A DNA stretch of 28,231 nt. Origin: a virus. The notes under the pieces were generated by a model. It was given only the letters and a program-made list of their open reading frames with translations. It made no database searches and was not told the origin of the DNA. A program made the translations under genes and the position numbers. How positions within the stretch are numbered: position 1 is the stretch's first letter; every line of letters begins with the position of its first letter. The stretch is from positions 1-28,231 of the IMG/VR virus record IMGVR_UViG_3300048505_000341; one strand, written 5' to 3'. Of this stretch, positions 2,254 to 22,924 are shown in pieces.

Positions 2254-2265
2254 ATGGAATATATA

Positions 2266-2904
2266 ATGCACAAAATATATAAGAATTTTCTTACCCATGA
2301 TCATGCATGGGACCTTGCCTGCTCAATCGACTCGACACCTTCAAACTGGTTTGAACTCGCAGTCAATACTTCTGACACTAAAGAACCTTTGTCGATATCA
2401 CGAAATGTCGGCGGGTATCGTAAGAGATTCGATTACGAGAACTCGATCCGAAAAGATATCGTTGGTGGGCGATTTGCCTATCAATTCCACAAAACTACAC
2501 CACATGTGATAGGTTGTGAGTGTTGGGAATGTACGTTCAAGAAAGACGTTTTGATGTCAGATAACTTTCGCGATTTTCTAGTGAAAGAGACATCTCTAAC
2601 CAACCCTGTCCTAGATGAATCTTTCACTTCCGCATATTATCCAAAAGACTTTTTGGGTCAACACCAAGATGATCGGAGAGGTATCGCCTTTATATTCCAT
2701 CTCTCTTGGGATTGGAAACCAGAATACGGTGGACTGTTTCACGTAGAAAGTGAGAAAGGATTCAATACCTATGTGCCTGGATGGGGAGACTTGGTGCTTA
2801 TGGAACTGGGTGAGATAGGACACAATCACTTTGTTTCGGAAGTGTCTGAATACGCACCAAGACCTAGACTGGCAATATCAGGTTGGTTCAGTGATGAAGA
2901 ATAA
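2266..2904 (+). CDS. Prolyl-4-hydroxylase-like 2-oxoglutarate/Fe(II) oxygenase
   Basis: This 212-residue protein has the double-stranded beta-helix oxygenase signature. It shows HxD at His133-Gln-Asp135 (context GQHQDDRRG), a distal His188 (HFVSEV) and Arg201 (RPRLAISGWF), which would bind Fe(II) and the 2OG carboxylate. The family hydroxylates side chains such as Pro or Lys using O2 and 2OG. The start at 2266 is preferred because GGAA lies six bases upstream and MHKIYKNF looks like a family start. An in-frame ATG at 2254 abuts the terminator T-tract and lacks a ribosome site. It overlaps the next gene by 11 bases. Its place right behind a collagen-like fibre gene suggests that fibre as a substrate, but the substrate is inferred. 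Other phage or host proteins are possible targets. Confidence 0.85.
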   Translation: MHKIYKNFLTHDHAWDLACSIDSTPSNWFELAVNTSDTKEPLSISRNVGGYRKRFDYENSIRKDIVGGRFAYQFHKTTPHVIGCECWECTFKKDVLMSDNFRDFLVKETSLTNPVLDESFTSAYYPKDFLGQHQDDRRGIAFIFHLSWDWKPEYGGLFHVESEKGFNTYVPGWGDLVLMELGEIGHNHFVSEVSEYAPRPRLAISGWFSDEE

Positions 2905-4180
2905 TGAAAGATTGCCATTGATGTATCACGACGGAGATAGGTGGAGAAACTATTCCGTATATAATAAAGAGAATCACAACGTAGGCATATTCGCAGGGTG
3001 TGGACCTTCTCTGAATGAAGTCGACCTTAGTGTCTTGAAGGGTGCTGGGAAAACAGTCCTTTCCATCAATACAACGTACCCAACCCTGAAACCAGATATC
3101 TGGATGGGTATGGACGACCCCACATGTTATGACGAACGAGTATATGCAGAATCATTTCCCAAACTACTCCGTGGCGGATTTCAGAACCATGAGTTAGAAG
3201 GTAGAACACTCAAAGAATATCCCAACACATACTTCGCGAGTATAGAAGAAGTGGAGTTAGTGGACCGTCATAGAATATTTGAATGTTCTTTACCAAAATC
3301 AGAAACGTTTGTCTGGCACAAGAACAGTTTCGCAATGGCCATGAACGTCATGTTGTACATGGGATTCAAAGACATATACCTTCTTGGGGTCGATTTGTCA
3401 ACAGATAAACTAAATTATTTTGACGGTCGAGAGTTGACTCAGAAAGAGATTGACTGGAACATGAATCTGTATGACTCTCTTTATGGTTACATCGAATGGT
3501 TCTCTACAGAATGTGCAAAGATTGGTGTGACTATACATTCTTTGAGTAAGGATTCACGCATCAATGATATCGTTGATTATGTTTCACTCGAAGAACTCAA
3601 TGAGTCCCTCGCGCCTCGTATACCCAAGACCACCGAACTAGTACATTCGTCTAAACATGGTTTCGACCTAATCAGTGATGAGTACAAGAAACTACTGCAA
3701 CACGAACACGAAAATAGTGAGTGGGGAGTCAACGCTGGATGGGCAGCCGATAAACTACATGAATGGTTGATGTCTCATGGTGCAACCGAAGTGTTGGATT
3801 ATGGATGCGGACAGAGTAGTTTCCGAAAGAACATTCCGGTGAAGGGTCACTACAATGTGTTTGAGTACGACCCCGGCATTTCCGGCAAAGATACCTCACC
3901 CGAACCGAGAGACTACTTGATATGTATTGACGTACTAGAACACGTCGAACCAGACCTTCTCTATAATGTACTGGAAGACCTTGAACGAGTAATCAAGAAA
4001 AAGGGGTATCTGACGATTGCAATGTACCCCGCTAGGAGGATATTGAAGGACGGTCGAAACGCACACCTTATTGTCAAAGATTCTTTCTGGTGGATTACTA
4101 AACTGAGAGAACACTTCAATATATTGAGTAGTAAACAAAATGGTTTGGAACTAAATGTGGAAGTCGGACCGAAATTCTAA
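2894..4180 (+). CDS. DUF115-like (Rossmann) domain fused to a SAM-dependent methyltransferase
   Basis: ATG at 2894 (MKNNERLPL) gives 428 residues. The reading frame is open further upstream, but that part lies over the oxygenase gene. The N-terminal ~230 residues resemble the DUF115/MptE-like group: GCGPSL at residues 35-40, then KPDIWMGMDDP, and later DIYLLGVDLS. Members occur next to glycan-modification genes, but biochemistry is known for few. The C-terminal ~150 residues are a class I methyltransferase with motif I VLDYGCG (residues 300-306) and the acidic segment ICIDVLEHVEPD around Asp346. Translation is probably coupled to the oxygenase through the 11-base overlap. A role in modifying a sugar or protein on the virion is inferred from the fusion and context. 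The methyl acceptor is unknown. Confidence 0.75.
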   Translation: MKNNERLPLMYHDGDRWRNYSVYNKENHNVGIFAGCGPSLNEVDLSVLKGAGKTVLSINTTYPTLKPDIWMGMDDPTCYDERVYAESFPKLLRGGFQNHELEGRTLKEYPNTYFASIEEVELVDRHRIFECSLPKSETFVWHKNSFAMAMNVMLYMGFKDIYLLGVDLSTDKLNYFDGRELTQKEIDWNMNLYDSLYGYIEWFSTECAKIGVTIHSLSKDSRINDIVDYVSLEELNESLAPRIPKTTELVHSSKHGFDLISDEYKKLLQHEHENSEWGVNAGWAADKLHEWLMSHGATEVLDYGCGQSSFRKNIPVKGHYNVFEYDPGISGKDTSPEPRDYLICIDVLEHVEPDLLYNVLEDLERVIKKKGYLTIAMYPARRILKDGRNAHLIVKDSFWWITKLREHFNILSSKQNGLELNVEVGPKF

Positions 4181-4246: not shown

Positions 4247-5665
4247 ATGCCAGCTATAGTAAGACACCCAATGGGCAGAGATATGGCGAAGACTCTACTA
4301 GAGGACGTTAAAGTATCTGCCGCAGAATCTTCTACCAACGAATATTATATCGGTATTGGTAAGTCCGATGTATTCAATACGTCTGATTCTGTTATCGATC
4401 CAGTGGATTCACCAAGGGATGAACGAGAGTTTCGACTAAACCTACAATCTATCAAAAAGGTTGAAGATGCAATTTTCGTCGCCAAGCGAGTGAACTGGTC
4501 ATCTGGTACAATCTATTGTGGATGGGACGATGCAACTGACCCAGAACACACACCATCATGGTACGTCCTCAACGACGCAAAAGAAGTGTATGTTTGTCTA
4601 GAACCAGGCAGATCACTGGACGGTACATCTAAACCATCGATGGTAGACCCTAACTGGGGACTATATGCCCCAATGAGTCCTCAGACAGACCCAAACAATC
4701 CTGAGTATGATCCTAACCATCGAATGTTCAATGTAAGAGAGTGGTGGAAAGAGTTCAAGACTTCGGACGATTATGTCTGGAAGTTTCTATACTCTATAAC
4801 TCCAGAGAATATCTACCAGTTCCTATCATCAAACCATATCCCAGTACAAGAACCAGAAGATAGTCTACCACTAGGTGACAACATTGAAGACCTACAATGG
4901 ATGGTAAAGGATACGGCAGTAGGTGGTCAGATTATTGACGTGCATGTCGTTGACGGTGGTTCCGGATATACCTCTGAACCTACAGTTGAGGTTGTGGGTA
5001 ATGGTGCGAACGCTACAGTCCAAGTGCATCTTGTCGATGGTGTGATAAAAAGAGCAACCGTAACTTCATATGGTGCTGGTTATCAGTACGCGTCTCTTCA
5101 CATTCAGGGCGGTGGTGGTCTTGGTGCCGTACTTCGTCCGGTCATCACTGGACCTAACGGTATTGGTTATGACGCTATAGATGATTTGAAAACAAGTTCG
5201 GTCCTAATGAACATCAAACCAGACGGTGATGTCAATGGCACATTTACCGTTCAGAACACTTTCCGTCAAATGGGTATTATAAAGAACCCTAAAGAAGTTG
5301 ACGGAACAACACCTTACGCCGGAGTTTCGGTGATGACATTACCTTCACTTACTTTGACGGGAACTTCTCCTTTCGCAGTAGGTGAAAAGATAAGAGGACT
5401 CACTTCCGAAGCGGTTGCTTACGTAGACAAATCGGATGGTAATGTTGTACACTATCACCAGAATGAATCTACAGGTTTCAAAATATTCCAGAATGAGACC
5501 GTCGAACAAGTTGGTATCAGTGGCGTAGAATCAGAAGTGCAATTGAACTCGAAGAAGAATGGCATCGATCGATTCACTGGTGAAGTACTATATATTGAGA
5601 ATCGTTACAGAATTCGTCGTGACGAAGAACAACAAGAAGATATAAAGATTGTAATAACCGTTTAG
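4247..5665 (+). CDS. 8: Baseplate wedge subunit gp8
   Basis: This 472-residue protein matches T4 gp8 in several places. The C-terminus (FTGEVLYIENRYRI, ending IKIVITV) parallels T4's HSGEMIYMENRPPI and INILFTF. FRQMGIIKNP parallels T4 FRQISIITNP. DYVWKFLYSITP parallels T4 GYVWEYLFEIPP. In T4, gp8 dimers form part of the baseplate wedge with gp6, gp7, gp10, gp11 and gp53. The protein is about 140 residues longer than T4 gp8 (334). Much of the excess is a Gly-rich stretch at about residues 225-300 with GGSGYTSEPTV and GGGGLGAVL. Such GSGY hairpins are typical of gp8 homologues in marine phages. The ribosome site AGGA lies 7 bases upstream of ATG. The stop is 8 bases before the next gene. Confidence 0.88.
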   Translation: MPAIVRHPMGRDMAKTLLEDVKVSAAESSTNEYYIGIGKSDVFNTSDSVIDPVDSPRDEREFRLNLQSIKKVEDAIFVAKRVNWSSGTIYCGWDDATDPEHTPSWYVLNDAKEVYVCLEPGRSLDGTSKPSMVDPNWGLYAPMSPQTDPNNPEYDPNHRMFNVREWWKEFKTSDDYVWKFLYSITPENIYQFLSSNHIPVQEPEDSLPLGDNIEDLQWMVKDTAVGGQIIDVHVVDGGSGYTSEPTVEVVGNGANATVQVHLVDGVIKRATVTSYGAGYQYASLHIQGGGGLGAVLRPVITGPNGIGYDAIDDLKTSSVLMNIKPDGDVNGTFTVQNTFRQMGIIKNPKEVDGTTPYAGVSVMTLPSLTLTGTSPFAVGEKIRGLTSEAVAYVDKSDGNVVHYHQNESTGFKIFQNETVEQVGISGVESEVQLNSKKNGIDRFTGEVLYIENRYRIRRDEEQQEDIKIVITV

Positions 5666-5673
5666 GATAAATC

Positions 5674-8600
5674 ATGGCAGATTTTACAGATAAAACATTC
5701 AGAGAAAGTTACCGCGATTATTACAACCCAGACGACGGTTATCATCGTGTACTATTCAACTCTGGTCGCGCACTACAAGCGCGTGAACTAATCGAATCAC
5801 AGACAATTATCCAAGAGGAGATTGCACGATTCGGACGTAACATTTTCAAAGAGGGCGCACTAGTCAATCCAGGCGGTGCGACCGTAGACAACAAACTAGA
5901 ATATGTTCGACTAACCGCATCAAGTGTGGTAGATGCGAATTGGGTGGGTAAAACTCTATCGACCGAGGCAATGCCGGGTCAGGGTATAGAACTGAAGGTT
6001 CTAGAGATTGTCGACGTAACACCAGACGACCCAACAACACTGTATGTACAATACACAGATACGTCTCAAGTGTCCGACAATACCAAAGCACCTCGTGTTG
6101 GTGCCGGAGAGATTCTATATCGAGTTGACAATACACAATTGACTATTGAAGTCGATCAGGATGCGGTTGACCCAGAAACCAGTGAAATTATCAAAGCGTC
6201 TGGTCGTGGTACTAAGGCATATTTCGCTTCGGGTGATTTCTTCGTACAGGGTCACTTCGTCTACATGGAAGGCGGTAGTTCTTTCATTGACAAATACAGC
6301 GCACTACCTACCAAAGACATTGGTTTCAAGATTGAACAAAACATTATCACGTCCGAACAAGACATCGAACTGTTTGATAACCAAGGAGAAGTTCCTAACA
6401 TCACTGCGCCAGGCGCGGACCGTTATCAAATCAAACTAATTCCTACAACGCGTGACCAAGTATTAGAAGAAGAGAACTTTGTGTTCGTTGCACGTGTTGT
6501 TGAAGGTATCATCACACGTGAAGTCAGTACATTCGATGCATATAACCGAATCAATGACCTTCTTGCACAACGCACAAAAGAAGAGTCGGGTAACTACGTA
6601 GTAGATGAGTTCAAGGCAATTTTCGAAGATAAAGACGAAAATAACCTAAACCTAGATGTCACCGAAGGTATTGCATACGTTGATGGTTATCGACTAGAGA
6701 TTGGTACAACAGACATCAACGTATCAAAGGCAAGAGATTCCGTAGAGAAGTCGAACGAACCTGTCCCTGCTGTATATGGTAATTATATCTACATCGACGG
6801 ATCAACCACAGAAGGGTTCGGTCGTTTAGATACGTTCGGTCAAATGGAATTGATTGATGCGAATGACCAAGATATTGGTACTTGTCATGTTCGTGGTGTT
6901 CAACGTGACCCGAAGGGTATTCGTCTATACATCTTCAAGATTGACATGGACGTTGGTGAGAGTTTCTCTAATGTCGTTAAACTAAGAGATAACGTTCCTT
7001 CAGGGGACCCAGACTTCGTCCCTGTTGTGACACCCGCCGTTCTTTATGAAGCGTCGAATAACAACCTGTTATTCCCTCTACCTAATAGCACACCAACCAA
7101 GCAGTTATCACCAAACCAGTTCACTGCTAACTACACTGCTCAAAGATACTTCAGGGGTCAACCAAACACGTCTGGTGATATTGCTCTTACCGATGGTGTA
7201 GAAAGTTCACAATGGATTATTGCTACTGCCAGCGGTGCAATCCTTTCTAACGTGCCTGTAAACAACACATATACAGGACTGGACCCTGCTACTACATATG
7301 TCATCGCATACTACGTGGAGTTCACCAACGCAACTGCACGAACCAAAGATGCAACAGATGTAACAGAAATTCGAACAATCACTGCGAGTGACCAAACTGG
7401 CAGACCTATCTTCACAACAAAGGTAGATGGTATCGAATTGCAATCTGTCAAGTGGAGATTGGAAGGTACCACAGAGTGGACAGATATCACTCACCAGTTT
7501 ACATTTGACGGTGGTCAACGTGATAACTTCTATGACCGAATCGTCATCAAACTCAAGCCGGGATACACTATTCCATATAATGGTTCTGACGACACTGAAG
7601 TCGAAGTAAAGTATTCCCATTATACCCACGGACAAGATGGACAGTTCTTCTCTGTTAGTTCATACTACACAGAAACCTATGAGTCTATTCCAGACCATAC
7701 TACTGCGACAGGTCAGGTTATTTCTTTGCGTGACGTATTGGATTTCCGTCCATCTCGTTCAGAGGACGACTTGCAAGAGTTCAACGTAACCGGAGAACTT
7801 CCACAAAACGCATCTGCCGTTACAGTGAACCAAATCCACTATTACCTACCACGTATCGATGTGTTGGTTGCCAACGCAACAGATAGTCGTGGTGATATCG
7901 GGTTCGGTGAACTACAGGTGATTCAAGGTGAGTCCAATGTAATCCCACGTCAACCAGAGATTCCTACAGGTTCAATGGCGTTATACACATTCCGTCTGAA
8001 TCCATACACATTTGGTACTGCTGACCTTACTAGCACGTTCATTCCAAACAAACGATTCACAATGAAAGATATCGGTAAGTTGGAACAACGTGTAACAGAC
8101 CTATTCGAACTAACTACTTTGAGTCTGTTGGAGTCTAACACTAACTCATTGACTGTATTAGATGAGAATGGTAATGCGCGTACTAAGGCGGGTTTCATTG
8201 CAGACAACTTTAGTTCATTCATATTCTCTGATATCAACAACCCAGAGTATCGTGCGTCTATTGACCCACAGGGATTATTGAAACCATCTTTCCGTGAGAA
8301 CTCAGTCCGTCTTTCTTATAGTACGGACAATGTTGCTGAGGTCACCAAAAACGGCGATGTTGTAACACTACCATATTCGCATGAACCACTGGTTGAACAG
8401 TTACTTGCAACAGGTAAGTTGAACGTCAACCCATTTGCGGTTATCACTCAAACCGGGCATATGGAACTATCCCCATCTTCGGATGAGTGGGTCGAGACTC
8501 GAACTCTACCGCCTATCATGCAGACTACCGTACGTCGATTGGAAAACTTCGATGCGGACCTATGGCAACGTCCAGCATTGCGTGACGGTAGAAATTCCAA

Positions 8601-11600
8601 TAACTTCACAAACACGGGTCTGTTTACTACTATACCTAGAAATATATCCTTTAGAGAAACGACTCGTAGTATCCAAGACTTCATCGGTGAACAAGTCGCG
8701 AACGTAGAAATCATTCCGTTCATGCGTTCACGTATAATAAACTTCACTGTCAAAGGTCTGCGTCCTAATACCAAGATGTTCGCATTCTTCGGTGACAGGG
8801 ATGTGAGTTCATGGGTACGTCAAGAAACAACATCATCTCGATTCTCAGATAACCCTACAGAAGTGGGAAGTCAATATGCAAATGAAGAAGAGTACCCATC
8901 TGCACTAGGTGGTAAAGGCGATCTAGTCACAGACAGTAAGGGTGAATTGATTGGTACTTTCTTCTTACCTAACACACCATCAATCAACTTTAGAACTGGT
9001 ACTCATGAGTTCAAGTTGCTTGACGTGAGTGGTGAAGGTAACGATAGTGAATCGACTGCAAGTACTAGTGCAAACTACACATCAACAGGTACCATCGAGT
9101 CTATACAAAGAACCATTCGCACCACACGTGTTATTGGTTTCCGTGCTGGTCGTCAAGACCCTCTGGCACAGACATTCTTTGTTGACCAGATAGAAAACCC
9201 TAATGGACTGTTTATAACAAGAGCAAAAATCTTCATGGAGAGCAAGGACAGTACAGTCCCTCTTCAAGTACAGATTCGTTCGGTAGAAAATGGTACCCCA
9301 ACTACACGTATTGTGCCAGGATCAGTCAAGTTTGTAGACCCTGCCCTTATCACAGTGACACCACTTGATAGTATTTCACAAGATGATACAGGAATGTCTA
9401 CTCTTGTAGAGAATGGTGGCACAATTGTCGAATTTGATGAACCAATTTACTTGACAAGTGGAGAAGAGTATGCTATAATACTACTCGCTGAGTCGGTAGA
9501 GTATAATGCTTATATTGCTGAGACCTACGAGTTCTTGGTTGGTAGTACTGACAGTAAAGTCACGAAGCAACCTACGCTAGGTTCTCTATTCCTATCACAG
9601 AATGGATTCACATGGACACCAGACCAGACTAAGGACCTAATGTTTACATTAGACCGTGCTGAGTTTGACAATTCGGGTACTCTAGTTCTTGACAATGCAT
9701 CCTTACCTAAAGTAACTCTAGAGTCTAATCCTATTCAAACTACTATAGGTACTAGTGTAGTCAGAGTCTACCATGAAGGTCATGGATTCACTGAAGGTGA
9801 TGTAGTATCTATGTCCAGCGTTGAGAATGCAATTGGTGGAATACCTTCAACAGATTTTGATGGTACATTCACAGTTCTCAATCCAACATGGGAAGGGTAT
9901 GGTATCTCTGTTGCAACAACTGCAACGTCTACCGCTCTTGGTGGTGGCGATGATGTGACCGCATCACAACAAGTCTACTATGATGAGTTTGTACCACAGG
10001 TTCAGACTTTGACACCTAATGGGACTAGCATCACTGCCGAATTACGTAACCCAAGCACCATATCTTATGGTAGTGGTCGATCATTCAACCCTACAAGTTA
10101 TCAAATTCCGGCTCCAACAAAAGGTAATACCGTATTCTTGAATGACTACAACACAAACACAAGTCCAAGTGTTGTAGCATCCACTGATAATGCTAACGGT
10201 CTAGAAACGATGAAGTTTGAACTATCTCTTGAAACTCAAGACAAAAAAGTTTCTCCGTTGATCGACCTTCAACGTGTGTCTGTTCTTGCACTAGAAAATG
10301 TCATCGATAACAACGATGCTGCGCAACACATAACTACTCCGGTTGTAATTGACGAAGCGTCTGCTGGACTGAAAATCATCTTTGCTGCTAACCGACCTTC
10401 TGGTGCAGACTTCGATGTCTATGTTAGGTCCGCTATTGATGAGGACACATTATCTGAAGTAGACAGTGAAGGTGATTTGCTAATTCCTTGGGTACAAGCT
10501 ACTATAGACAAGGAACTTCCTTCGGACGACAACACATCAACGTATCGCGATTATGAATACACTGTTGATGTCGACCAGTTTACTGCATTCCAAGTCAAGA
10601 TTATTATGCAATCTAATAGTTCTTCTAAGATTCCGGTAATACGAGACTTACGTGCAATTGCTCTGATAACAGGAGGTTCGGGTTCCACAGGTTCTACTAC
10701 CACATCAAATCCAAGTAACAATACTGGTAGTACAAACACCGGCGGTGAAACTAATACTGGTGGCGAAACTAATACTGGTGGCGAAACTAATACCGGCGGT
10801 GAAACTAATACAGGTGGCGAGACCAATGAGGTCAGAGACATATCTTCTCTTTTCGCTGAGACCGTTCCAACAATATCAGCAAGTAGCCGCGATGTGGGTA
10901 GAGAGTGGTCAGGTACATCTGGTTGGGAACCTAGAGGAGTCAGATTCAATCTTGAGTTCCACCTTGATGGATCGTTGAAAGTCTATAGTCAAGTAAACGC
11001 TACGGATATTGGAACACGAACTCTAGTGCATACTAGTCAGTGGTTGGATAGACCTATTCAACAATTTACTGACGGTCCAGATAATAACTTCTTTGACTAT
11101 CTAGAAAGATTTAGAATTACAAGCACCCTGAAAAAAATCAACGATTATGAAATACCTAATGATAATGATCCGAATGATCCGATCATGTCTCACACAAGTG
11201 ACGGTGTGTCGGTACTTAGAAACAAAACAATCTACGATTTTGTCGGTGACAATTATGCAACCAATGTATCAGTCGCTGGAAGAGGCGAAATGGGTAGCAC
11301 AGGGTTCATTCTAGTTGAATCCGATATGTCGGGTGTTAGTGAATCCATACCATATACTGGTACTGTAGAGATGGACATTAGATTGTCTCCACCTACTAGT
11401 GAGGCATTTGGTGGTGATTTGTATGAACCTGCTGGCAGTGTCACTCAAACACTCACGTTCAATTATGAATTGCCTGTTGGAGATCGTATGACGGTCGATA
11501 CAGACGAAGGTATCGTTGTAGCTGTCGCTCATGATGGCGTATATTGGGAAAGTGGTCGAGACTTCCACGCAATTTATCCATATAGTCCAGAAATGACCTC

Positions 11601-11994
11601 AGAAGCAGAAGGTCAAGCAACAGTTCAACCAATATTCATTGAAACGGATGCAGCTGTAAATGGTACTCAACATGATGTTAGATTCATAACTTACGGAATC
11701 GAAAGACCAGAAGGTCATAACACACACTACTATCCAATAACATACACATTTGGTCCGGAATGGTCTACTACGGGTACTATTACTATGAACTATGGTACAG
11801 AGTTTGTGAACACGATTACTTCTGAAGCTTCAGGTAACTATAGTGTCAACCTATCCACTACTCACAGTGGTGAGACTTTTGATTGGTTGGATATACCGAT
11901 CGGTATTCGATACACAGATGAATATAGAGATGCGGGTGGATCAGTAAACCCTGCTTGGCAATCAGAAGATGATGCTCTAGTATTTCATCACTAA
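5674..11994 (+). CDS. Giant DUF4815-type virion structural protein (baseplate/fibre connector)
   Basis: This 2106-residue protein starts MADFTDKTFRESYRDYYNP. Its beginning, with ALQARELIESQTIIQEEIARFG, fits the DUF4815 family of marine T4-like phages, usually encoded right after gp8. Around residues 510-580 is a fibronectin-III-like stretch (LDPATTYVIAYYVEF). Later motifs typical of these virion proteins are VKGLRPNTKMFAFF and DPLAQTFFVDQIENPNG. At residues 1688-1717 a low-complexity linker of five NTGGET units leads to a ~390-residue C-terminal part that I do not recognise. The protein probably sits at the baseplate periphery and links fibres. The position suits a functional counterpart of T4 gp10 or gp7, but the sequence alone does not decide this. 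The ribosome site AGGA overlaps the gp8 stop codon. Confidence 0.8.
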   Translation: MADFTDKTFRESYRDYYNPDDGYHRVLFNSGRALQARELIESQTIIQEEIARFGRNIFKEGALVNPGGATVDNKLEYVRLTASSVVDANWVGKTLSTEAMPGQGIELKVLEIVDVTPDDPTTLYVQYTDTSQVSDNTKAPRVGAGEILYRVDNTQLTIEVDQDAVDPETSEIIKASGRGTKAYFASGDFFVQGHFVYMEGGSSFIDKYSALPTKDIGFKIEQNIITSEQDIELFDNQGEVPNITAPGADRYQIKLIPTTRDQVLEEENFVFVARVVEGIITREVSTFDAYNRINDLLAQRTKEESGNYVVDEFKAIFEDKDENNLNLDVTEGIAYVDGYRLEIGTTDINVSKARDSVEKSNEPVPAVYGNYIYIDGSTTEGFGRLDTFGQMELIDANDQDIGTCHVRGVQRDPKGIRLYIFKIDMDVGESFSNVVKLRDNVPSGDPDFVPVVTPAVLYEASNNNLLFPLPNSTPTKQLSPNQFTANYTAQRYFRGQPNTSGDIALTDGVESSQWIIATASGAILSNVPVNNTYTGLDPATTYVIAYYVEFTNATARTKDATDVTEIRTITASDQTGRPIFTTKVDGIELQSVKWRLEGTTEWTDITHQFTFDGGQRDNFYDRIVIKLKPGYTIPYNGSDDTEVEVKYSHYTHGQDGQFFSVSSYYTETYESIPDHTTATGQVISLRDVLDFRPSRSEDDLQEFNVTGELPQNASAVTVNQIHYYLPRIDVLVANATDSRGDIGFGELQVIQGESNVIPRQPEIPTGSMALYTFRLNPYTFGTADLTSTFIPNKRFTMKDIGKLEQRVTDLFELTTLSLLESNTNSLTVLDENGNARTKAGFIADNFSSFIFSDINNPEYRASIDPQGLLKPSFRENSVRLSYSTDNVAEVTKNGDVVTLPYSHEPLVEQLLATGKLNVNPFAVITQTGHMELSPSSDEWVETRTLPPIMQTTVRRLENFDADLWQRPALRDGRNSNNFTNTGLFTTIPRNISFRETTRSIQDFIGEQVANVEIIPFMRSRIINFTVKGLRPNTKMFAFFGDRDVSSWVRQETTSSRFSDNPTEVGSQYANEEEYPSALGGKGDLVTDSKGELIGTFFLPNTPSINFRTGTHEFKLLDVSGEGNDSESTASTSANYTSTGTIESIQRTIRTTRVIGFRAGRQDPLAQTFFVDQIENPNGLFITRAKIFMESKDSTVPLQVQIRSVENGTPTTRIVPGSVKFVDPALITVTPLDSISQDDTGMSTLVENGGTIVEFDEPIYLTSGEEYAIILLAESVEYNAYIAETYEFLVGSTDSKVTKQPTLGSLFLSQNGFTWTPDQTKDLMFTLDRAEFDNSGTLVLDNASLPKVTLESNPIQTTIGTSVVRVYHEGHGFTEGDVVSMSSVENAIGGIPSTDFDGTFTVLNPTWEGYGISVATTATSTALGGGDDVTASQQVYYDEFVPQVQTLTPNGTSITAELRNPSTISYGSGRSFNPTSYQIPAPTKGNTVFLNDYNTNTSPSVVASTDNANGLETMKFELSLETQDKKVSPLIDLQRVSVLALENVIDNNDAAQHITTPVVIDEASAGLKIIFAANRPSGADFDVYVRSAIDEDTLSEVDSEGDLLIPWVQATIDKELPSDDNTSTYRDYEYTVDVDQFTAFQVKIIMQSNSSSKIPVIRDLRAIALITGGSGSTGSTTTSNPSNNTGSTNTGGETNTGGETNTGGETNTGGETNTGGETNEVRDISSLFAETVPTISASSRDVGREWSGTSGWEPRGVRFNLEFHLDGSLKVYSQVNATDIGTRTLVHTSQWLDRPIQQFTDGPDNNFFDYLERFRITSTLKKINDYEIPNDNDPNDPIMSHTSDGVSVLRNKTIYDFVGDNYATNVSVAGRGEMGSTGFILVESDMSGVSESIPYTGTVEMDIRLSPPTSEAFGGDLYEPAGSVTQTLTFNYELPVGDRMTVDTDEGIVVAVAHDGVYWESGRDFHAIYPYSPEMTSEAEGQATVQPIFIETDAAVNGTQHDVRFITYGIERPEGHNTHYYPITYTFGPEWSTTGTITMNYGTEFVNTITSEASGNYSVNLSTTHSGETFDWLDIPIGIRYTDEYRDAGGSVNPAWQSEDDALVFHH
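10735..10824 (+). repeat. 18-bp tandem repeat encoding (NTGGET)x5
   Basis: Five consecutive in-frame 18-bp units follow the pattern AAYACNGGYGGYGARACY and encode NTGGET. They differ only at synonymous third positions. They form a flexible linker inside the DUF4815 protein. Confidence 0.95.
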
Positions 11995-16181: not shown

Positions 16182-17387
16182 ATGTCATACGGTTTACAAG
16201 TAAAAAACGGTTCGGGACTAGACCTTATTGACACATCATCTCAACAGGTGCAAGTCGTAAAAGAAGGTACAGTAACGCCAGGCAGTCTAAACAATCAGTC
16301 GTCTTATCAAAGATCACAAGCGCCATCTGTTATATGTCCCGGCAGAAAAGAAGACACACTTTTGTTTTGTAGACCCAAACTTAGGTCTGGATATAGTCTT
16401 GGTGGTATAAATCCGAACTTCGCAGTTATGTGGGGTCAAGGTCGATATACTTTAAGACCATCCACAACAGTTAGTTCGGGAAATAGTACATTCAACTGTA
16501 CTGTAACATTCACCAATATAGGTCTATATGATGTTGGTAGTTATGTCAATCCGAGAGACCCTGCTGCACCAACACCAAATCCAGTAATAGACCTCGTTGG
16601 TCAAACAGTGAGTGGTTGGAATAGTTCTTTTTCCGGTTACACTCCACCAACTATAAAAAGCGTCTCCCTTGTTTCCGGTACTACATATAGTATTACTTTT
16701 AGTACAACAACATCGTCGACCATGTATGCTTCTGCTTCAACGAACGTGAATATGGATGTTGCTAGTTTCGTTGAACAAGGTTCAAACTGGTATTGGAATT
16801 ATAGATTTCAATTAGACTATAGGTTCGGAAGAATGACCGATGGTGTTGACGAATCAACAAATTATGGGTTGGAAGTATATGCTAGTGATGGAGAAACTAT
16901 TAGATTTTCTTCCAATCGGAAAAATTTCCAGATAGAAAACATTACTAGTGGAAATGCAGATTTTGCTCCCGCAACAACTTCAACCGGAGAACTTGCATAC
17001 GGAAGTCCTGTTATTTACACCGAACTGCAAGATGTTCTGAACTGGGAAGACTATTGGGTTCTTGTAACAGGTTCGGGTTACGCTGCTGCAATCTGCGATG
17101 GGTATGGAGGATCGTACAATACAGGACAAATAATAACTTGGGGCGTAGGATTTTCTTGGTGTTTGCCGGGCAACAACTCTTGTGAGAATAAGGCTATATC
17201 AAACAATCCGTCAGGCGGACCAAGTTCCACTTCACTAGTACATAGTAGTCAATTCGCTGTGGCGATATGTCCTATGTACATGACACTTAATACACCAGCC
17301 CCCGCTATTGGATATGGTGGTGGTAGAGTACAAGACGATTGGGTTGCAAACGCAACTCGTTGCTTAATTACAGGAAAATTCATATGA
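16182..17387 (+). CDS. Putative fibre tip/adhesin protein, YGLxV type
   Basis: This 401-residue protein has YGLQVKNGSGLDLIDTSS directly at the N-terminus. A second copy of the motif, YGLEVYASDGETIRFSSNR, lies near residue 228. The C-terminal half is rich in Gly, Ser, Tyr and Trp (AAICDGYGGSYNTGQ, FSWCLPGNNSC) and holds several Cys residues, an unusual density for this region of the genome. It resembles receptor-binding proteins in composition. The spacing of 4 bases from the previous gene and the ATGA overlap with the following chaperone suggest that the three are made together. Function is inferred from context. Confidence 0.65.
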   Translation: MSYGLQVKNGSGLDLIDTSSQQVQVVKEGTVTPGSLNNQSSYQRSQAPSVICPGRKEDTLLFCRPKLRSGYSLGGINPNFAVMWGQGRYTLRPSTTVSSGNSTFNCTVTFTNIGLYDVGSYVNPRDPAAPTPNPVIDLVGQTVSGWNSSFSGYTPPTIKSVSLVSGTTYSITFSTTTSSTMYASASTNVNMDVASFVEQGSNWYWNYRFQLDYRFGRMTDGVDESTNYGLEVYASDGETIRFSSNRKNFQIENITSGNADFAPATTSTGELAYGSPVIYTELQDVLNWEDYWVLVTGSGYAAAICDGYGGSYNTGQIITWGVGFSWCLPGNNSCENKAISNNPSGGPSSTSLVHSSQFAVAICPMYMTLNTPAPAIGYGGGRVQDDWVANATRCLITGKFI

Positions 17388-17845
17388 AACATTGCGCTTT
17401 AGTTGAGGCGAGTACTGGAGAAATCAAAAGTTTCTTGATGCCCGCAGAACCAGAAAAATACCCAGAAGGAGGTTCCTACGGTGACCTAGAAGTTCATTGG
17501 GAAGAAAATGGACTATTAGATTCTTACGGAACTGCCGCTTCTAATTTTTTCTATTGGAATGGTGGAGAATTTCAAGAAAAACCAGAAAGACCTTCTTTCT
17601 ATTATACTTTCAACTGGGATACCAAAGATTGGGATTTTGACTCAGAAGGATTCGAGAAGGACGTTCGAGCACACAGAAACGCAAAATTGGGTATGTGTGA
17701 TTGGACTCAGATGCCAGATGCGAACTTATCAGAAGATATGACGAACGCTTGGAGAGGATATCGACAAGAACTTAGAGACATCACTGATAACATGTCTGGT
17801 AAAGATGATTTGACTCAGATAGGATGGCCTGAACCTCCACAATAG
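17384..17845 (+). CDS. Tail fibre assembly chaperone-like protein
   Basis: The start at 17384 (MKHCALVEASTGEIKSF) is set by AGGAAAA eight bases upstream and by the ATGA overlap with the previous stop; it gives 153 residues. At roughly residues 93-137 lies a helix with RAHRNAKLGMCDWTQMPDA, then YRQELRDI. This matches the phage tail-assembly chaperone family in which an (R)xxLLxxxDWTQxxD helix is followed by YRxxLRDI. Family members assist folding or assembly of tail fibres and are usually encoded just after their client. The likely client is therefore one or both YGL proteins or the 1098-residue fibre. The terminator at 17905 ends this unit. Confidence 0.75.
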   Translation: MKHCALVEASTGEIKSFLMPAEPEKYPEGGSYGDLEVHWEENGLLDSYGTAASNFFYWNGGEFQEKPERPSFYYTFNWDTKDWDFDSEGFEKDVRAHRNAKLGMCDWTQMPDANLSEDMTNAWRGYRQELRDITDNMSGKDDLTQIGWPEPPQ

Positions 17846-18004: not shown

Positions 18005-21000
18005 GTGTCAGCATCTAGTATACCACTAAAACTAAAAAATACCGATGGTGACCTACAGGAATTCACTCCAGCAGAAGAGATGTATCTTGCTGTAAAAGTG
18101 GGTGAAGCATTAGCGGAGGCCTCCGCTGGTGATGTCGGTGACATCAGTCTAACCAATGGTGCAAACATAGGTTCTTTTGTAGATACGTACTACAATGAAC
18201 CAGCGGGTACACACCCGATGTCTGCTATCACTGGCACAAGTGTAACTACAACCTTGAAACAGGTTGCTGGTTCCGCGAGTGAATCTGGTTCTGATTTTGC
18301 CCGTCCTGTCGGTTATTACGCAGATAACGCAAATCCTGGCTTCTACGAAATGGTAGATGGGGATTTGGATAATCTGACAAATCGTGCACTAAAAAACATG
18401 GAGACTTTAGGTCTTCAAGGTGCATTCGAACTTTCAACTACCTCGCCAGGTAGTGATTGGATTAAACACATCGAGAATGTGTTTGCCGATACACATGGTG
18501 ATGGTACAACAACTCAATATCATATCTGGAAACGAACTACACTTGCAACTCCACCATCTGGTGTAGTTACTACACGTCCAGTCGCAACAGATTATGATGG
18601 AACTTCATTCAGCGGTCTGAGAGAAATGACAGACGCACAGATCAAGTACACACTTGGTCAACGTGCTAAGTCACTCCGAGCAACAGCAGGTGCGATTGGT
18701 TCATACCAGTTGCGTTCATCTGCACAAGGTGCTCCAACTCTAGCAGGTACATGGGTACCACGAGGTTCTGCCTCTAACACCCGTCGTACTATCGTTGATG
18801 TCGCATATTCTCGTACTCGTAACTCCGCGTACACTCGTACAAGGATTTCTGCATACAGTCGCAACCGTATTTCTACTTACACTCGCAATAGCACGGACAC
18901 TTTCGCTCGTACTTTTGTTGGTAACTATACAGGTGCATATTCTCGCGACTTCGTAGGTAACTACTCCCGTGACTTTGTAGGAAATTACGCAAGGACTCGC
19001 GTATCATCATATACACGTAACAGACTAACTGCATTTACTGGTTATTTTGCCGGTACTTACAACCGTTCACGTGTTTCTACATATGTCAGAAACCGCATCA
19101 CACCATTCACTGGTACATTCTCACGTAACCGTGTTTCAACATACACTCGTGGTCGTGTATCAACTTATGCGGGAACTTACTCACGTACACGCAGTTCTGC
19201 TTACTCAGCAGACTACACCCGTACTCGCGTATCATCATACACTGGAACTTATGCGGGAACTTATTCCCGTAACCGTGTATCTGCATATGCCGGTACTTAT
19301 TCACGTAACCGTGTTTCTGCTTATGCTCGTACTAGTACTCGAACTCGTACATCTGCTTACTCAGCAGACTACACCCGTACTCGTATAACTAACTATACTC
19401 GTGATCGAGTCACTAACTTTGCTGGTGTTTATTCTCGTGCACGTGTTTCATCATACACACGTAATCGAGTCACTAACTTTGCTGGTAACTTCGTAGGAAA
19501 CTACTCACGTGGATTCGTAGGAAACTACTCACGTGGATTCGCAGGCAACTACTCCCGTGGTTATGCCGGTGATTTCGTAGGTAACTACGCTCGTGTTTCT
19601 ACTCGTACATCTACTCGTACACGTTATTCAGCATATGCCCGTACGTCAACTCGTACTCGTTATTCTGCATATACTCGTGATCGTGTTACTAACTTTGCCG
19701 GTAACTTTGTAGGAAACTACTCACGTGTATTTGTTGGTGACTTCGTAGGTAACTATTCACGTAACTTCGCTGGTAACTATGCTGGTGACTACACTGGTAA
19801 CTATGCAACTACCTTTACAGGCGATTTCGTAGGTAACTATGCTCGTGGATATGCTGGTAACTATGCTGGTGATTACGTAGGTAACTATTCACGTGACCGT
19901 GTAACTAACTTTGCTGGTGATTTTGTTGGTAACTATGCAACAACGTTCACAGGTGATTTTGTTGGTAACTATGCTCGTGGATATGCTGGTAACTATGCTG
20001 GCGATTATGTGGGAGATTACGCAAGAACAAGTACTCGTACTCGCTATCAAACATACGACTACACTCGTAATTCAACCCGCACATCAACACGTACACTAAA
20101 TTATACTCGTACATTATACTATGTCGGTGACTTTACTGGAAACTATGCGCGTAACTATTCTGCTGCATATTCTCGTACTCCATCATACACTCGTACACTA
20201 TACTATGCGGGTGACTTCGTAGGTAACTACTCACGTAACCGTGCATTCTCATATGTCGGTAACTATGCTCGTACTAGTACAACAGGTGTAACATACACTG
20301 GTAACTACGGACGTACACGTACTGGTCACTATACTGGTAACTATGGTCGAACTCGTACTGGTCACTATACTGGTAACTATGGTCGAACTCGTGCCGCAAC
20401 ATATACTGGTAACTACGGTCGTACTTCAACACGTACACGTAACGCAACATATACTGGTAACTACGGTCGTACTTCAACACGTACGCGTTACTCTGCATAC
20501 TCTGCGAACTACACACGTAACCGTGCATTCTCATATGTTGGTGATTATGTAACTGGATACCCATACGTAGGAAACTTTACTGGTAACTTTGAAAGAAACC
20601 GCGTTGCAACAACAAGCTACACTCGTAATATTTCTTCTACTCGTACATCTACACGTACATCTACACGTACATCTGTAGTAGGAAGTGGTAACGGTGAAGC
20701 TGGTGGTACTCGTTACGTCTATAGTGGAAGTAACCCAACTTACCATAACTGGCGAGTGAATGCAAGTCCGTACGGTAACAGTGGTACTCTTATAGTCTAC
20801 AACTTCGGTACAATAAGATTCCAACAAACATATAGTCACTATACTACCGCAGTGGGCGTAATGAGCGTTACTTACTCTCACCCATATGGTTCATCCACAT
20901 ACTACAGAGACACTAACTGGGCATACACATCTAGTTATCAGTGGAACGCTTCATATGGTACATCAGCTCCAGGCAGTTCTTCATATACTGGTAACTTTGC

Positions 21001-22924
21001 TGGTAACTTCGCAGGTAACTATAGTGGTACTGCCTCTTATAGTAGGAGTGTCACATATACTGGTAACTTCGAACGTACTTCAACGCGTACGTCTTCTCGT
21101 ACAGTAAACTACCAACGTACTCGTACTGGTAACTATACTGGCGACTATACTGGTAACTACAACCGTGGATTCGCTGGCAACTTTGCTGGTGATTACTCTC
21201 GTAACCGTGCCGCATCTTATGCTGGCAACTTTGTTGGTGATTACTCACGTAACCGTGCCGCATCTTATGCTGGTAACTACTCACGTAACCGTGCATTCTC
21301 ATATGCTGGAGATTACGCTCGTAACCGTGCGTTCTCATACGCTGGTGATTACTCTCGTAACCGTGCTGCAACGTTGTACTACACAGGTGACTACGCTCGT
21401 ACTCGTGCTGGTCATTATACTGGTAACTATGCTCGTACTTCTACGCGTACTTCTACCAATACTGGTTACTACACTCGTACATTGTACTACACTGGTAACT
21501 ACGCTCGTGCGTTCACTCGTAACCGTGTTCAGACATTTACCAATACTGGTAACTACACACGTACTGGATACTATGCTGGTGACTACACTGGTAACTATAC
21601 TCGTACTCTAGGATACGCTGGCGACTATGTCGGTAACTATGCTCGTACAAGTACTCGTACATCTACACGTACTCGTTACTCTGCATATGCCCGTACACGC
21701 ATCACTAACTACGTTGGTGACTTTACGCGTAACCGTGTAACTAACTTTGCTGGTAACTTCGTAGGTAACTACGCAAGAACTTCTACTCGAACTTCTACTC
21801 GCGTCCGTTACTCTGCTTATGCACGTACTCGTATCACTAACTACGTTGGTGACTTTACACGAGTTTCAACACGCACATCTACACGTAACCGTGGTTCTGC
21901 TTACGCACGTACACGCATAACTAACTACACTGGTGATTTCACTAGAGATCGCGTAACTAACTTTGCCGGTAACTTCGTAGGAAACTACGCTCGTGGATAT
22001 GCCGGAGACTTTGTTGGTAACTATGCTCGTGGATACGCAGGCGATTTCGCTGGTAACTACACTGGTGAGTATACTCGTACATCTACACGTACTCGTTACT
22101 CTGCATACGTACGTAACCGAATTTCGGTATACACTCGTAACCGTGGATCAGCATATACTCGTGACCGTGTTACTGGATTCGCTGGTGACTTCGTAGGTAA
22201 CTATGCAAGAACGTTCTCTGGTCAATACTCACGTAACTACGCTGGTAACTTCATCGGTGATTTCGTTGGGGACTTCGGTGGAAACTACGTAGGTAATTAT
22301 ACTCGCGACTTCGGTGGAAACTACGTAGGTAACTATTCTCGTGGATTCATTGGTGAATATACTGGTGCTTATTCTCGTGGATTTGTTGGCGAGTACACTG
22401 GTGCATACTCTGGAACTTACAACCGTAGCTTCGGTGGTAACTATACTGGTAACTATGCAAGAGGTTTTGTTGGTGAATACACAGGAACCTATGCAACAAC
22501 GTTTACTGGTAACTACTCTCGTGGGTTCTCTGGTCAGTATACACGTGAATTTGCTGGTGACTTTGTAGGTAACTACGCAAGAACGTTTGCTGGAGATTAT
22601 ATTGGTGAGTACGCTCGTGACTTCGTCGGTGACTTTGTAGGTAACTACTCACGTGACTTCGTAGGTAACTACTCACGTGTCCGTGTATCTGCTTACTCAA
22701 GAATCCGTAGTTCTGCATACTCAGGTGCATACTCACGTGATCGTGTATCTACATACGTAGGTGACTTCACTGGTAACTATACTCGTGGATTCGAAGGTAA
22801 CTACTCACGCAACTTCGGTGGCAACTACTCACGATCCTTCCTAGGTAACTATGTTGGTGCAACGATTAGTGATACTCTAGTACATACTCCAGAAGTCTAC
22901 ACACTATACTGTAGGGTTGCATAA
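18005..22924 (+). CDS. Giant tetrapeptide-repeat fibre-like virion protein
   Basis: This 1639-residue protein begins at GTG. No ATG gives the conserved-looking N-terminus SASSIPLKLKNTDGDLQEFT, which resembles starts of virion proteins in marine T4-like phages. Residues 1-267 are ordinary sequence. Residues 268-890 and 994-1619 are built almost entirely of tetrads of the form [Y/F/R/S]-x-[R/G]-[N/D/T/S], for example YSRN, FVGN, YAGD, STRT, RVTN. Residues 891-993 form a non-repetitive island. The last ~20 residues (ATISDTLVHTPEVYTLYCRVA) are not repetitive. I saw no Lys in the repeat; all strong positive charge is Arg. No signal peptide or membrane segment is seen. It probably is a late virion fibre, given its own late promoter and terminator, but its location and role are not established. 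Confidence 0.8.
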   Translation: MSASSIPLKLKNTDGDLQEFTPAEEMYLAVKVGEALAEASAGDVGDISLTNGANIGSFVDTYYNEPAGTHPMSAITGTSVTTTLKQVAGSASESGSDFARPVGYYADNANPGFYEMVDGDLDNLTNRALKNMETLGLQGAFELSTTSPGSDWIKHIENVFADTHGDGTTTQYHIWKRTTLATPPSGVVTTRPVATDYDGTSFSGLREMTDAQIKYTLGQRAKSLRATAGAIGSYQLRSSAQGAPTLAGTWVPRGSASNTRRTIVDVAYSRTRNSAYTRTRISAYSRNRISTYTRNSTDTFARTFVGNYTGAYSRDFVGNYSRDFVGNYARTRVSSYTRNRLTAFTGYFAGTYNRSRVSTYVRNRITPFTGTFSRNRVSTYTRGRVSTYAGTYSRTRSSAYSADYTRTRVSSYTGTYAGTYSRNRVSAYAGTYSRNRVSAYARTSTRTRTSAYSADYTRTRITNYTRDRVTNFAGVYSRARVSSYTRNRVTNFAGNFVGNYSRGFVGNYSRGFAGNYSRGYAGDFVGNYARVSTRTSTRTRYSAYARTSTRTRYSAYTRDRVTNFAGNFVGNYSRVFVGDFVGNYSRNFAGNYAGDYTGNYATTFTGDFVGNYARGYAGNYAGDYVGNYSRDRVTNFAGDFVGNYATTFTGDFVGNYARGYAGNYAGDYVGDYARTSTRTRYQTYDYTRNSTRTSTRTLNYTRTLYYVGDFTGNYARNYSAAYSRTPSYTRTLYYAGDFVGNYSRNRAFSYVGNYARTSTTGVTYTGNYGRTRTGHYTGNYGRTRTGHYTGNYGRTRAATYTGNYGRTSTRTRNATYTGNYGRTSTRTRYSAYSANYTRNRAFSYVGDYVTGYPYVGNFTGNFERNRVATTSYTRNISSTRTSTRTSTRTSVVGSGNGEAGGTRYVYSGSNPTYHNWRVNASPYGNSGTLIVYNFGTIRFQQTYSHYTTAVGVMSVTYSHPYGSSTYYRDTNWAYTSSYQWNASYGTSAPGSSSYTGNFAGNFAGNYSGTASYSRSVTYTGNFERTSTRTSSRTVNYQRTRTGNYTGDYTGNYNRGFAGNFAGDYSRNRAASYAGNFVGDYSRNRAASYAGNYSRNRAFSYAGDYARNRAFSYAGDYSRNRAATLYYTGDYARTRAGHYTGNYARTSTRTSTNTGYYTRTLYYTGNYARAFTRNRVQTFTNTGNYTRTGYYAGDYTGNYTRTLGYAGDYVGNYARTSTRTSTRTRYSAYARTRITNYVGDFTRNRVTNFAGNFVGNYARTSTRTSTRVRYSAYARTRITNYVGDFTRVSTRTSTRNRGSAYARTRITNYTGDFTRDRVTNFAGNFVGNYARGYAGDFVGNYARGYAGDFAGNYTGEYTRTSTRTRYSAYVRNRISVYTRNRGSAYTRDRVTGFAGDFVGNYARTFSGQYSRNYAGNFIGDFVGDFGGNYVGNYTRDFGGNYVGNYSRGFIGEYTGAYSRGFVGEYTGAYSGTYNRSFGGNYTGNYARGFVGEYTGTYATTFTGNYSRGFSGQYTREFAGDFVGNYARTFAGDYIGEYARDFVGDFVGNYSRDFVGNYSRVRVSAYSRIRSSAYSGAYSRDRVSTYVGDFTGNYTRGFEGNYSRNFGGNYSRSFLGNYVGATISDTLVHTPEVYTLYCRVA
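18806..22861 (+). repeat. About 300 tandem 12-bp units encoding [YFRS]-x-[RG]-[NDTS]
   Basis: A 12-bp coding period covers 18806-20674 and 20984-22861. Copies differ mainly at synonymous positions. Higher-order copies are visible: a 132-bp unit starting at 19802 and again at 19934, and 36-bp units (YTGNYGRT plus four residues) in a row at about 20296-20470. Confidence 0.93.

Follow-up and report, generated by a model that had tools for sequence, protein, structure and literature searches.

The DNA analysed here (the window: 28,231 nucleotides, the whole of IMG/VR record IMGVR_UViG_3300048505_000341) is a virus fragment without another copy. An unusually repetitive open reading frame (ORF) lies downstream of three genes with matches to phage structural or assembly proteins:

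4247–5665, plus strand: T4 gp8-like baseplate wedge protein (PF09215, E 9.6e-6)
5674–11994, plus strand: DUF4815 structural protein (PF16075, E 1.5e-56)
17387–17845, plus strand: Phage_tail_APC/tail-fibre assembly-like protein, just upstream of the repeat ORF (PF16778, E 6.4e-16; phrog_4912, E 2.6e-13)
18005–22924, plus strand: repeat ORF, GTG start, 1639 amino acids

The repeat ORF sits between baseplate genes and other fibre genes, beside the tail-fibre assembly protein. In annotated phages its only clear relative is YFHUAIHA_CDS0201 of phage C48C1 (Kyanoviridae, OQ984149), a “hypothetical protein” encoded in the same gene order, after the baseplate wedge genes of that phage. Since the gp8-like, DUF4815 and Phage_tail_APC genes lie upstream and the order in C48C1 agrees, a tail-fibre role is likely. 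Gene order and architecture together indicate that the repeat protein is probably a tail fibre, and the location among tail genes also makes a virion-surface fibre, as proposed in the first-pass annotation, the best reading. At the window's left edge, positions 1–2202 encode an open-ended collagen-like protein (PF01391, E 6.6e-98), probably another fibre, and within the structural gene block a 2OG-Fe(II) oxygenase-like ORF overlaps one that weakly matches MptE-like proteins and methyltransferases (2254–4180).

Positions 18806–22861, previously described as one giant tetrapeptide array, correspond exactly to residues 268–1619 of the 1639-residue ORF. The four-residue period is real: a four-state repeat model scored 804 over residues 267–1619, versus 25 ± 7 for ten shuffles, and self-identity within the array was 0.17–0.28 at lags that are multiples of four and about 0.03–0.05 at odd lags. 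Tetrad position 1 is occupied by Tyr, Phe, Arg or Ser, position 2 by Thr, Ala, Val or Ser, position 3 by Gly, Arg, Ser or Thr, and position 4 by Asn, Thr, Asp or Ala. The 1,244 residues of the two arms described below comprise 173 Arg, 56 Asp plus Glu (net charge +117), 242 Tyr plus Phe and three His. They contain no Lys, so the proposed absence of lysine holds for the window; as a family rule it does not, with 0–0.75% Lys in most relatives and 2.2% in locus L068. Between orthologues, dN/dS in the arms was 0.07–0.24, not near 1, which indicates purifying selection and bears out the suggestion that the repeat pattern is under selection; the N-terminal domain is likewise under purifying selection.

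A scan of viral contigs yielded 65 loci with relatives, with which the window ORF was aligned from residue 1 to residue 1639 (loci L004–L068), and a second scan, made with a divergent alignment, yielded 79 loci, mostly new, from 208 matching stretches. Cellular homologues were not found in the genome collection. In line with the first-pass annotation, which recognised no named family, the repeat matched none in the sequence searches of Pfam, NCBIfam and the PDB. Searches of Pfam (E ≤ 1), NCBIfam and PHROGs gave nothing convincing for the repeat protein, PHROG matches to the repeats appearing to reflect composition; among PDB sequences nothing matched the family profiles at E ≤ 1 or the window protein at E ≤ 10, and fold libraries gave no match at E ≤ 0.001. 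The N-terminal domain matched neither PDB nor viral folds. Pentapeptide and hexapeptide beta-solenoids were rejected, the period being 4 rather than 5 or 6 and no Pfam family matching at E ≤ 1. Weak tblastn matches in S-RIM2 and Roseobacter phage CRP-235 were set aside as other fibre proteins that have neither the N-domain nor the C-terminal tail; their VTGN/LTGN runs (SWTG_00067 and gp36, respectively; L069 and L070) represent a simpler four-residue repeat. Enterococcus phage Riverwalk gave a match at E 4e-7. From its relatives and the nearest phage groups, the phage is presumably marine; a cyanophage host was not adopted, as psbA was absent from 12 related records, many of them fragmentary.

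The array is not continuous, as had been assumed, but has a non-repeat domain in its middle, at residues ~893–1000, so that the ORF divides into:

18005–18805, plus strand: putative N-terminal base/attachment domain, residues 1–267 (predicted confidently in relative L063; conserved in C48C1)
18806–20680, plus strand: arm 1, putatively outgoing, tetrapeptide repeats, residues 268–892 (four-state repeat model, mirror pairs)
20681–21004, plus strand: hypervariable mid-chain domain, the putative tip, residues ~893–1000 (AlphaFold2 core, divergence, same place in relatives)
21005–22861, plus strand: arm 2, putatively returning, tetrapeptide repeats, residues 1001–1619 (length, mirror complementarity to arm 1)
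22862–22921, plus strand: C-terminal 20-residue tail ending YTLYCRVA (conserved ending; predicted confidently in L063)

In the window, arms of about 625 and 619 residues thus flank a folded hypervariable domain. Where the non-repeat stretches of relatives were listed, the insert is central to the repeat region in short and long proteins alike, and a repeat hidden Markov model trained on the first set of relatives gave arms of 139/139, 267/267 and 581/580 residues around the domain in single proteins. Across 38 relatives the two lengths correlated with r = 0.97 and a median difference of 9 residues for arms of ~590 residues, whereas a randomly placed insert would give an expected difference of about 590; the relatives are not independent, so that such counts overstate certainty. 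Outliers among the 38 had irregular tip regions or two mid-chain domains (L025). A second set, purged of sequences whose last 250 residues also occurred in the first, included members without a tip domain; their arms measured 443/443, 419/419, 289/289, 277/277 and 265/265 residues and meet at an eight-residue turn GKxGxAYN, e.g. GKSGDAYN. When the arms were delimited by their “longest gap”, a crude rule, they agreed to within 10% in only 41% of the second set. Each of the long off-centre cases tested has a lateral domain in one of its arms. With this domain ignored, five of these members fold at 0.498–0.515 of their tetrads; four of the five were compared with rotated controls, and all four scored above them. 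The short member L085 failed the rotated midpoint control.

The arms are not only equal but complementary, a property that the first-pass annotation had not noticed. Read from both ends, tetrad i of arm 1 predicts tetrad N+1−i of arm 2. In the window this pairing is gapless over the halves nearest the base and becomes less regular, with gaps, near the tip:

18806–20053, plus strand: base half of arm 1, 104 tetrads, residues 268–683 (gapless pairing with 21614–22861)
21614–22861, plus strand: base half of arm 2, mirror partner of 18806–20053, residues 1204–1619 (pair list, pairing statistics)

A rule that Arg-first and Ser-first tetrads face Gly at position 3 was first noticed in the relatives and afterwards tested on the window and the second set. 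Among the 104 ungapped pairs of the window, Arg-first tetrads face Gly-3 in 38/38 cases (23/23 plus 15/15) and Ser-first tetrads in 13/13 (6/6 plus 7/7); this score of 51/51 was equalled in 0 of 20,000 shuffles, and mutual information between mirror pairs was 1.20 bits, against 0.40 ± 0.055 in shuffles. For tetrad classes in 27 proteins it amounted to 0.80 bits in mirror register versus ~0.08 at distant shifts, and in the 68 ORFs of the second set to 0.63 versus ~0.07. In 43 proteins, Arg-1 in arm 1 faces Gly-3 in arm 2 in 475 of 482 cases, and the reverse holds in 289 of 313; no Arg:Arg facing at position 1 occurred in 2,481 pairs of the relatives. Arg-first tetrads (RxSx/RVTN) prefer F/YxGN, Ser-first tetrads (STRT) prefer YxGN or FxGN, and YxRx pairs with YxRx or YxGN. 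Parallel pairing of the arms scored far below mirror pairing and was discarded; one relative, L068, failed the mirror test.

Orthologues change both sides of a pair, as in YAGN:RYSA, FVGD:RNSA and RVTN:FVGN, and the odds ratio for co-change was 3.8–3.9 at mirror shifts 0/+1 versus 1.0–2.6 at the other shifts tested. Column-wise covariation was moderate (median rank of the mirror partner 10 of 40), the 22 sequences being too shallow for use alone. Equal arm lengths and complementarity in mirror order imply that the chain most likely runs out and then back in antiparallel fashion, and we infer that the pairing of the arms is physical and antiparallel.

The pairing need not lie within one chain. 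Arm 1 of one subunit or fibre might pair with arm 2 of the next, giving an interlocked cable with the same code, for which the statistics would be alike. Two peaks of mutual information, at residue offsets 1 and 3 and symmetric about 2, suggest two different partner contacts per strand. This fits side chains that interdigitate between face-to-face strands, and it equally fits a closed barrel whose outgoing strands each contact two of the returning strands, in two registers. If it were built from three chains, the number in known fibres, a closed barrel would have six alternating strands, and two contacts per strand suit such a barrel with both intra- and inter-chain pairs. On the other hand, equal arms, the location of both ends at the base and the eight-residue turn favour a hairpin path for each chain. 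We regard inter-chain pairing as possible but the less probable arrangement, and as a variant of the fold-back fibre more than its competitor. The Tyr, Phe and Arg positions may point either outward or inward.

The C48C1 protein keeps the mirror code. Its N-domain is 67% identical to that of the window protein over the full domain, and it has the same tetrads, mid-chain insert and gene neighbours; it differs in being about twice as long (10,044-bp coding sequence) and in having several extra domains, in arm 2 only. Three of these lie opposite arm-1 tetrads 77, 56 and 35, exactly 21 apart, as though decorations recurred along the fibre at a constant interval. The open frame (L003) contains an exact duplication, with copies at residues 2026 and 2101, 75 residues apart, which shifts the mirror register by ~7–8 tetrads; with one copy set aside, register is restored, at 256 tetrads out and 257 back. 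The duplication may stem from misassembly of the public sequence.

Local duplication does alter repeat arrays, and the C48C1 copy is an example of an exact internal one; the symmetry of the arms might therefore be a mutational by-product of tandem or inverted duplication, or of assembly collapse of repeats. Yet the arms are complementary rather than copies of each other, the favoured pairs being unlike (RVTN:FVGN, STRT:YVGN), the low dN/dS indicates selection, and numerous contigs of different sample origin show the same pattern, all of which renders a mutational origin extremely improbable.

Other arrangements of the same elements were observed among the relatives. At L011 (5490–9599), L036 (6843–11231), L045 (395–4978) and L016 (6141–10571), an upstream gene shares the tetrads and carries a comparable mid-chain domain, but its N- and C-terminal domains are unrelated, and many genomes of the second set contain two tandem repeat ORFs. 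Upstream tetrad proteins with other terminal domains (L036, L029, L045, L011) also tend to mirror-pair. The window ORF at 16182–17387 showed no homology to the upstream repeat paralogue of L011. L059 and L060 have near-identical N-domains, L059 with an insertion of ~370 residues resembling beta-propeller repeats.

AlphaFold2 was applied to a relative of 671 amino acids (L063; 11 sequences, monomer). The N-domain (residues 1–265) was predicted mostly at pLDDT 80–94, the arms at <50, and the last 11 residues as a strand at 83–90; the confidence of this terminal strand in the model is in keeping with a C-terminus that comes back to the base. All 105 relatives selected by a looser form of the motif ended in YT[LM]YxRxx. 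In a monomer run that covered the mid-chain domain of the window protein the arms were likewise <50, while the core of the mid-chain domain (~903–972) reached 75–91 and consisted of strands and one short helix. The domain occupies the same location in relatives with unlike sequence, and its amino-acid divergence between orthologues is near saturation; it is presumably a receptor-binding domain that contacts the host.

With regular short repeats, a solenoid is the usual outcome, and beta structure suits a periodicity of alternate residues, so that a single-direction solenoid or fibre, each arm coiling or stacking by itself without folding back, had to be considered. Such a structure gives no reason to expect equal arms on the two sides of a movable mid-chain domain, mirror-register complementarity, arms linked by a mere eight-residue turn, or a confident C-terminal strand beside unmodelled arms, and a super-period indicative of a preferred coil length, sought in the autocorrelation of the array, did not stand out. 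We therefore consider it improbable; in particular, the solenoid proposed earlier, coiling once through the whole array, finds no support, given two arms of equal length whose tetrads match in mirror order.

The low pLDDT of the arms, their net charge and their 242 aromatic residues would also suit a disordered, sticky Tyr/Arg-rich cationic polymer coating the virion, composition rather than pairing being under selection. Predicted disorder, which the first-pass annotation would have taken, if seen in all oligomeric states, as refuting its reading, was formally found for the monomer, but the mirror code is evidence of structure independent of prediction. A sticky polymer, one of the original suggestions, leaves the pairing rules unexplained when taken alone: it offers no reason for residue-exact equality of the arms, for the absence of Arg:Arg facing pairs or for compensatory tetrad changes, and we judge it very unlikely.

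Equal arms, mirror complementarity, selected arms and a variable tip were observed across more than 100 relatives. Taking these together, we propose, with a probability of roughly 0.8 and on the basis of sequence, that the window ORF encodes a distal tail-fibre protein serving host recognition in a marine myovirus that resembles the Kyanoviridae, with out-and-back arms held in register by the code and a hypervariable tip. From the base domain at its N-terminus the chain would emerge as an extended and very long tetrapeptide arm (residues 268–892), form a small hypervariable receptor-binding domain at the tip (893–1000) and return along itself as the second arm (1001–1619), its last ~11 residues docking back on the base. 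The tetrad code would keep the arms in register, Arg or Ser at position 1 requiring Gly at position 3 of the partner, and three chains would form the shaft, presumably of six strands. Scaled from the T4 needle, which measures about 150 by 25 Å (PMC3004832), the fibre might be very roughly 180–200 nm long.

Shafts of phage tail fibres are hard to predict, and AlphaFold2 failed on the repeat arms here, whereas the sequence alone would yield the path of the fold and the residue-by-residue register of the shaft. The likely receptor-binding domain is located in mid-protein and would escape a search aimed at C-terminal tips; for a widespread group of phages that are uncultured, host-recognition domains could thus become readable from contigs. 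If the arms do pair tetrad by tetrad, one arm can lengthen or shorten only when the other changes to match, and sequence would suffice to predict what lies opposite any position, somewhat as in an RNA hairpin; this raises the question of how matched insertions originate in arms hundreds of codons apart. The code may also serve as a rule for designing very long protein fibres that are locked in register and carry a display domain on their tip. The literature covered, with subscription journals and preprints mostly outside, contained no account of such a repeat or of a fold-back shaft, and the fold-back tetrapeptide fibre design was not found in the databases searched. On balance, we favour the view that the proteins constitute a new class of fibre, with a self-complementary tetrapeptide “alphabet” and antiparallel arms of up to ~1,000 residues pairing tetrad by tetrad under residue rules, Arg or Ser being set opposite Gly and Arg never opposite Arg.

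Among known systems, CdiA likewise is a giant repeat filament that projects a mid-chain receptor-binding domain (PMC11630599), and the likeness extends to two-partner-secretion filaments of the filamentous haemagglutinin type. However, CdiA folds its FHA-1 repeats into a right-handed beta-helix and retains its C-terminal half in the periplasm until later delivery; the phage protein has no secretion or toxin part, and CdiA has no mirror-paired return arm.

The closer counterpart is T4 gp37 (collar D10 and needle D11; also the tip of lambda Stf), with which the window protein shares an out-and-back path, in our case deduced from sequence, and a receptor-binding part in mid-chain. If the gp37 tip comprises residues 934–959, a boundary that we assume, it is flanked by arms of 52 and 50 residues. 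The repeat arms here, in contrast, are tetrapeptide-built and reach ~1,030 residues versus ~50, the gp37 needle being about 12–20 times shorter, and the tip is a folded, exchangeable domain. The base of gp37 is built from residues 811–881 and 1010–1026, before and after the needle, which is elongated, consists of six antiparallel strands and contains seven iron atoms; the receptor-binding tip lies in mid-chain (PMC6957217, PMC7291167). The HxH iron motifs are absent from the window protein, with three His in 1,244 arm residues against seven iron sites, and a PDB sequence or fold match indicating homology to gp37 D10/D11 was not obtained; because of the missing motifs and the lack of detectable homology, we describe the protein as working like gp37 but do not class it as gp37. 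Both proteins end in VRxA or a close variant. In gp37, residue G921 leaves room for F970 of the neighbouring subunit (PMC6957217, PMC7291167), so that the principle of a glycine making room for a big side chain is perhaps common to the two fibres.
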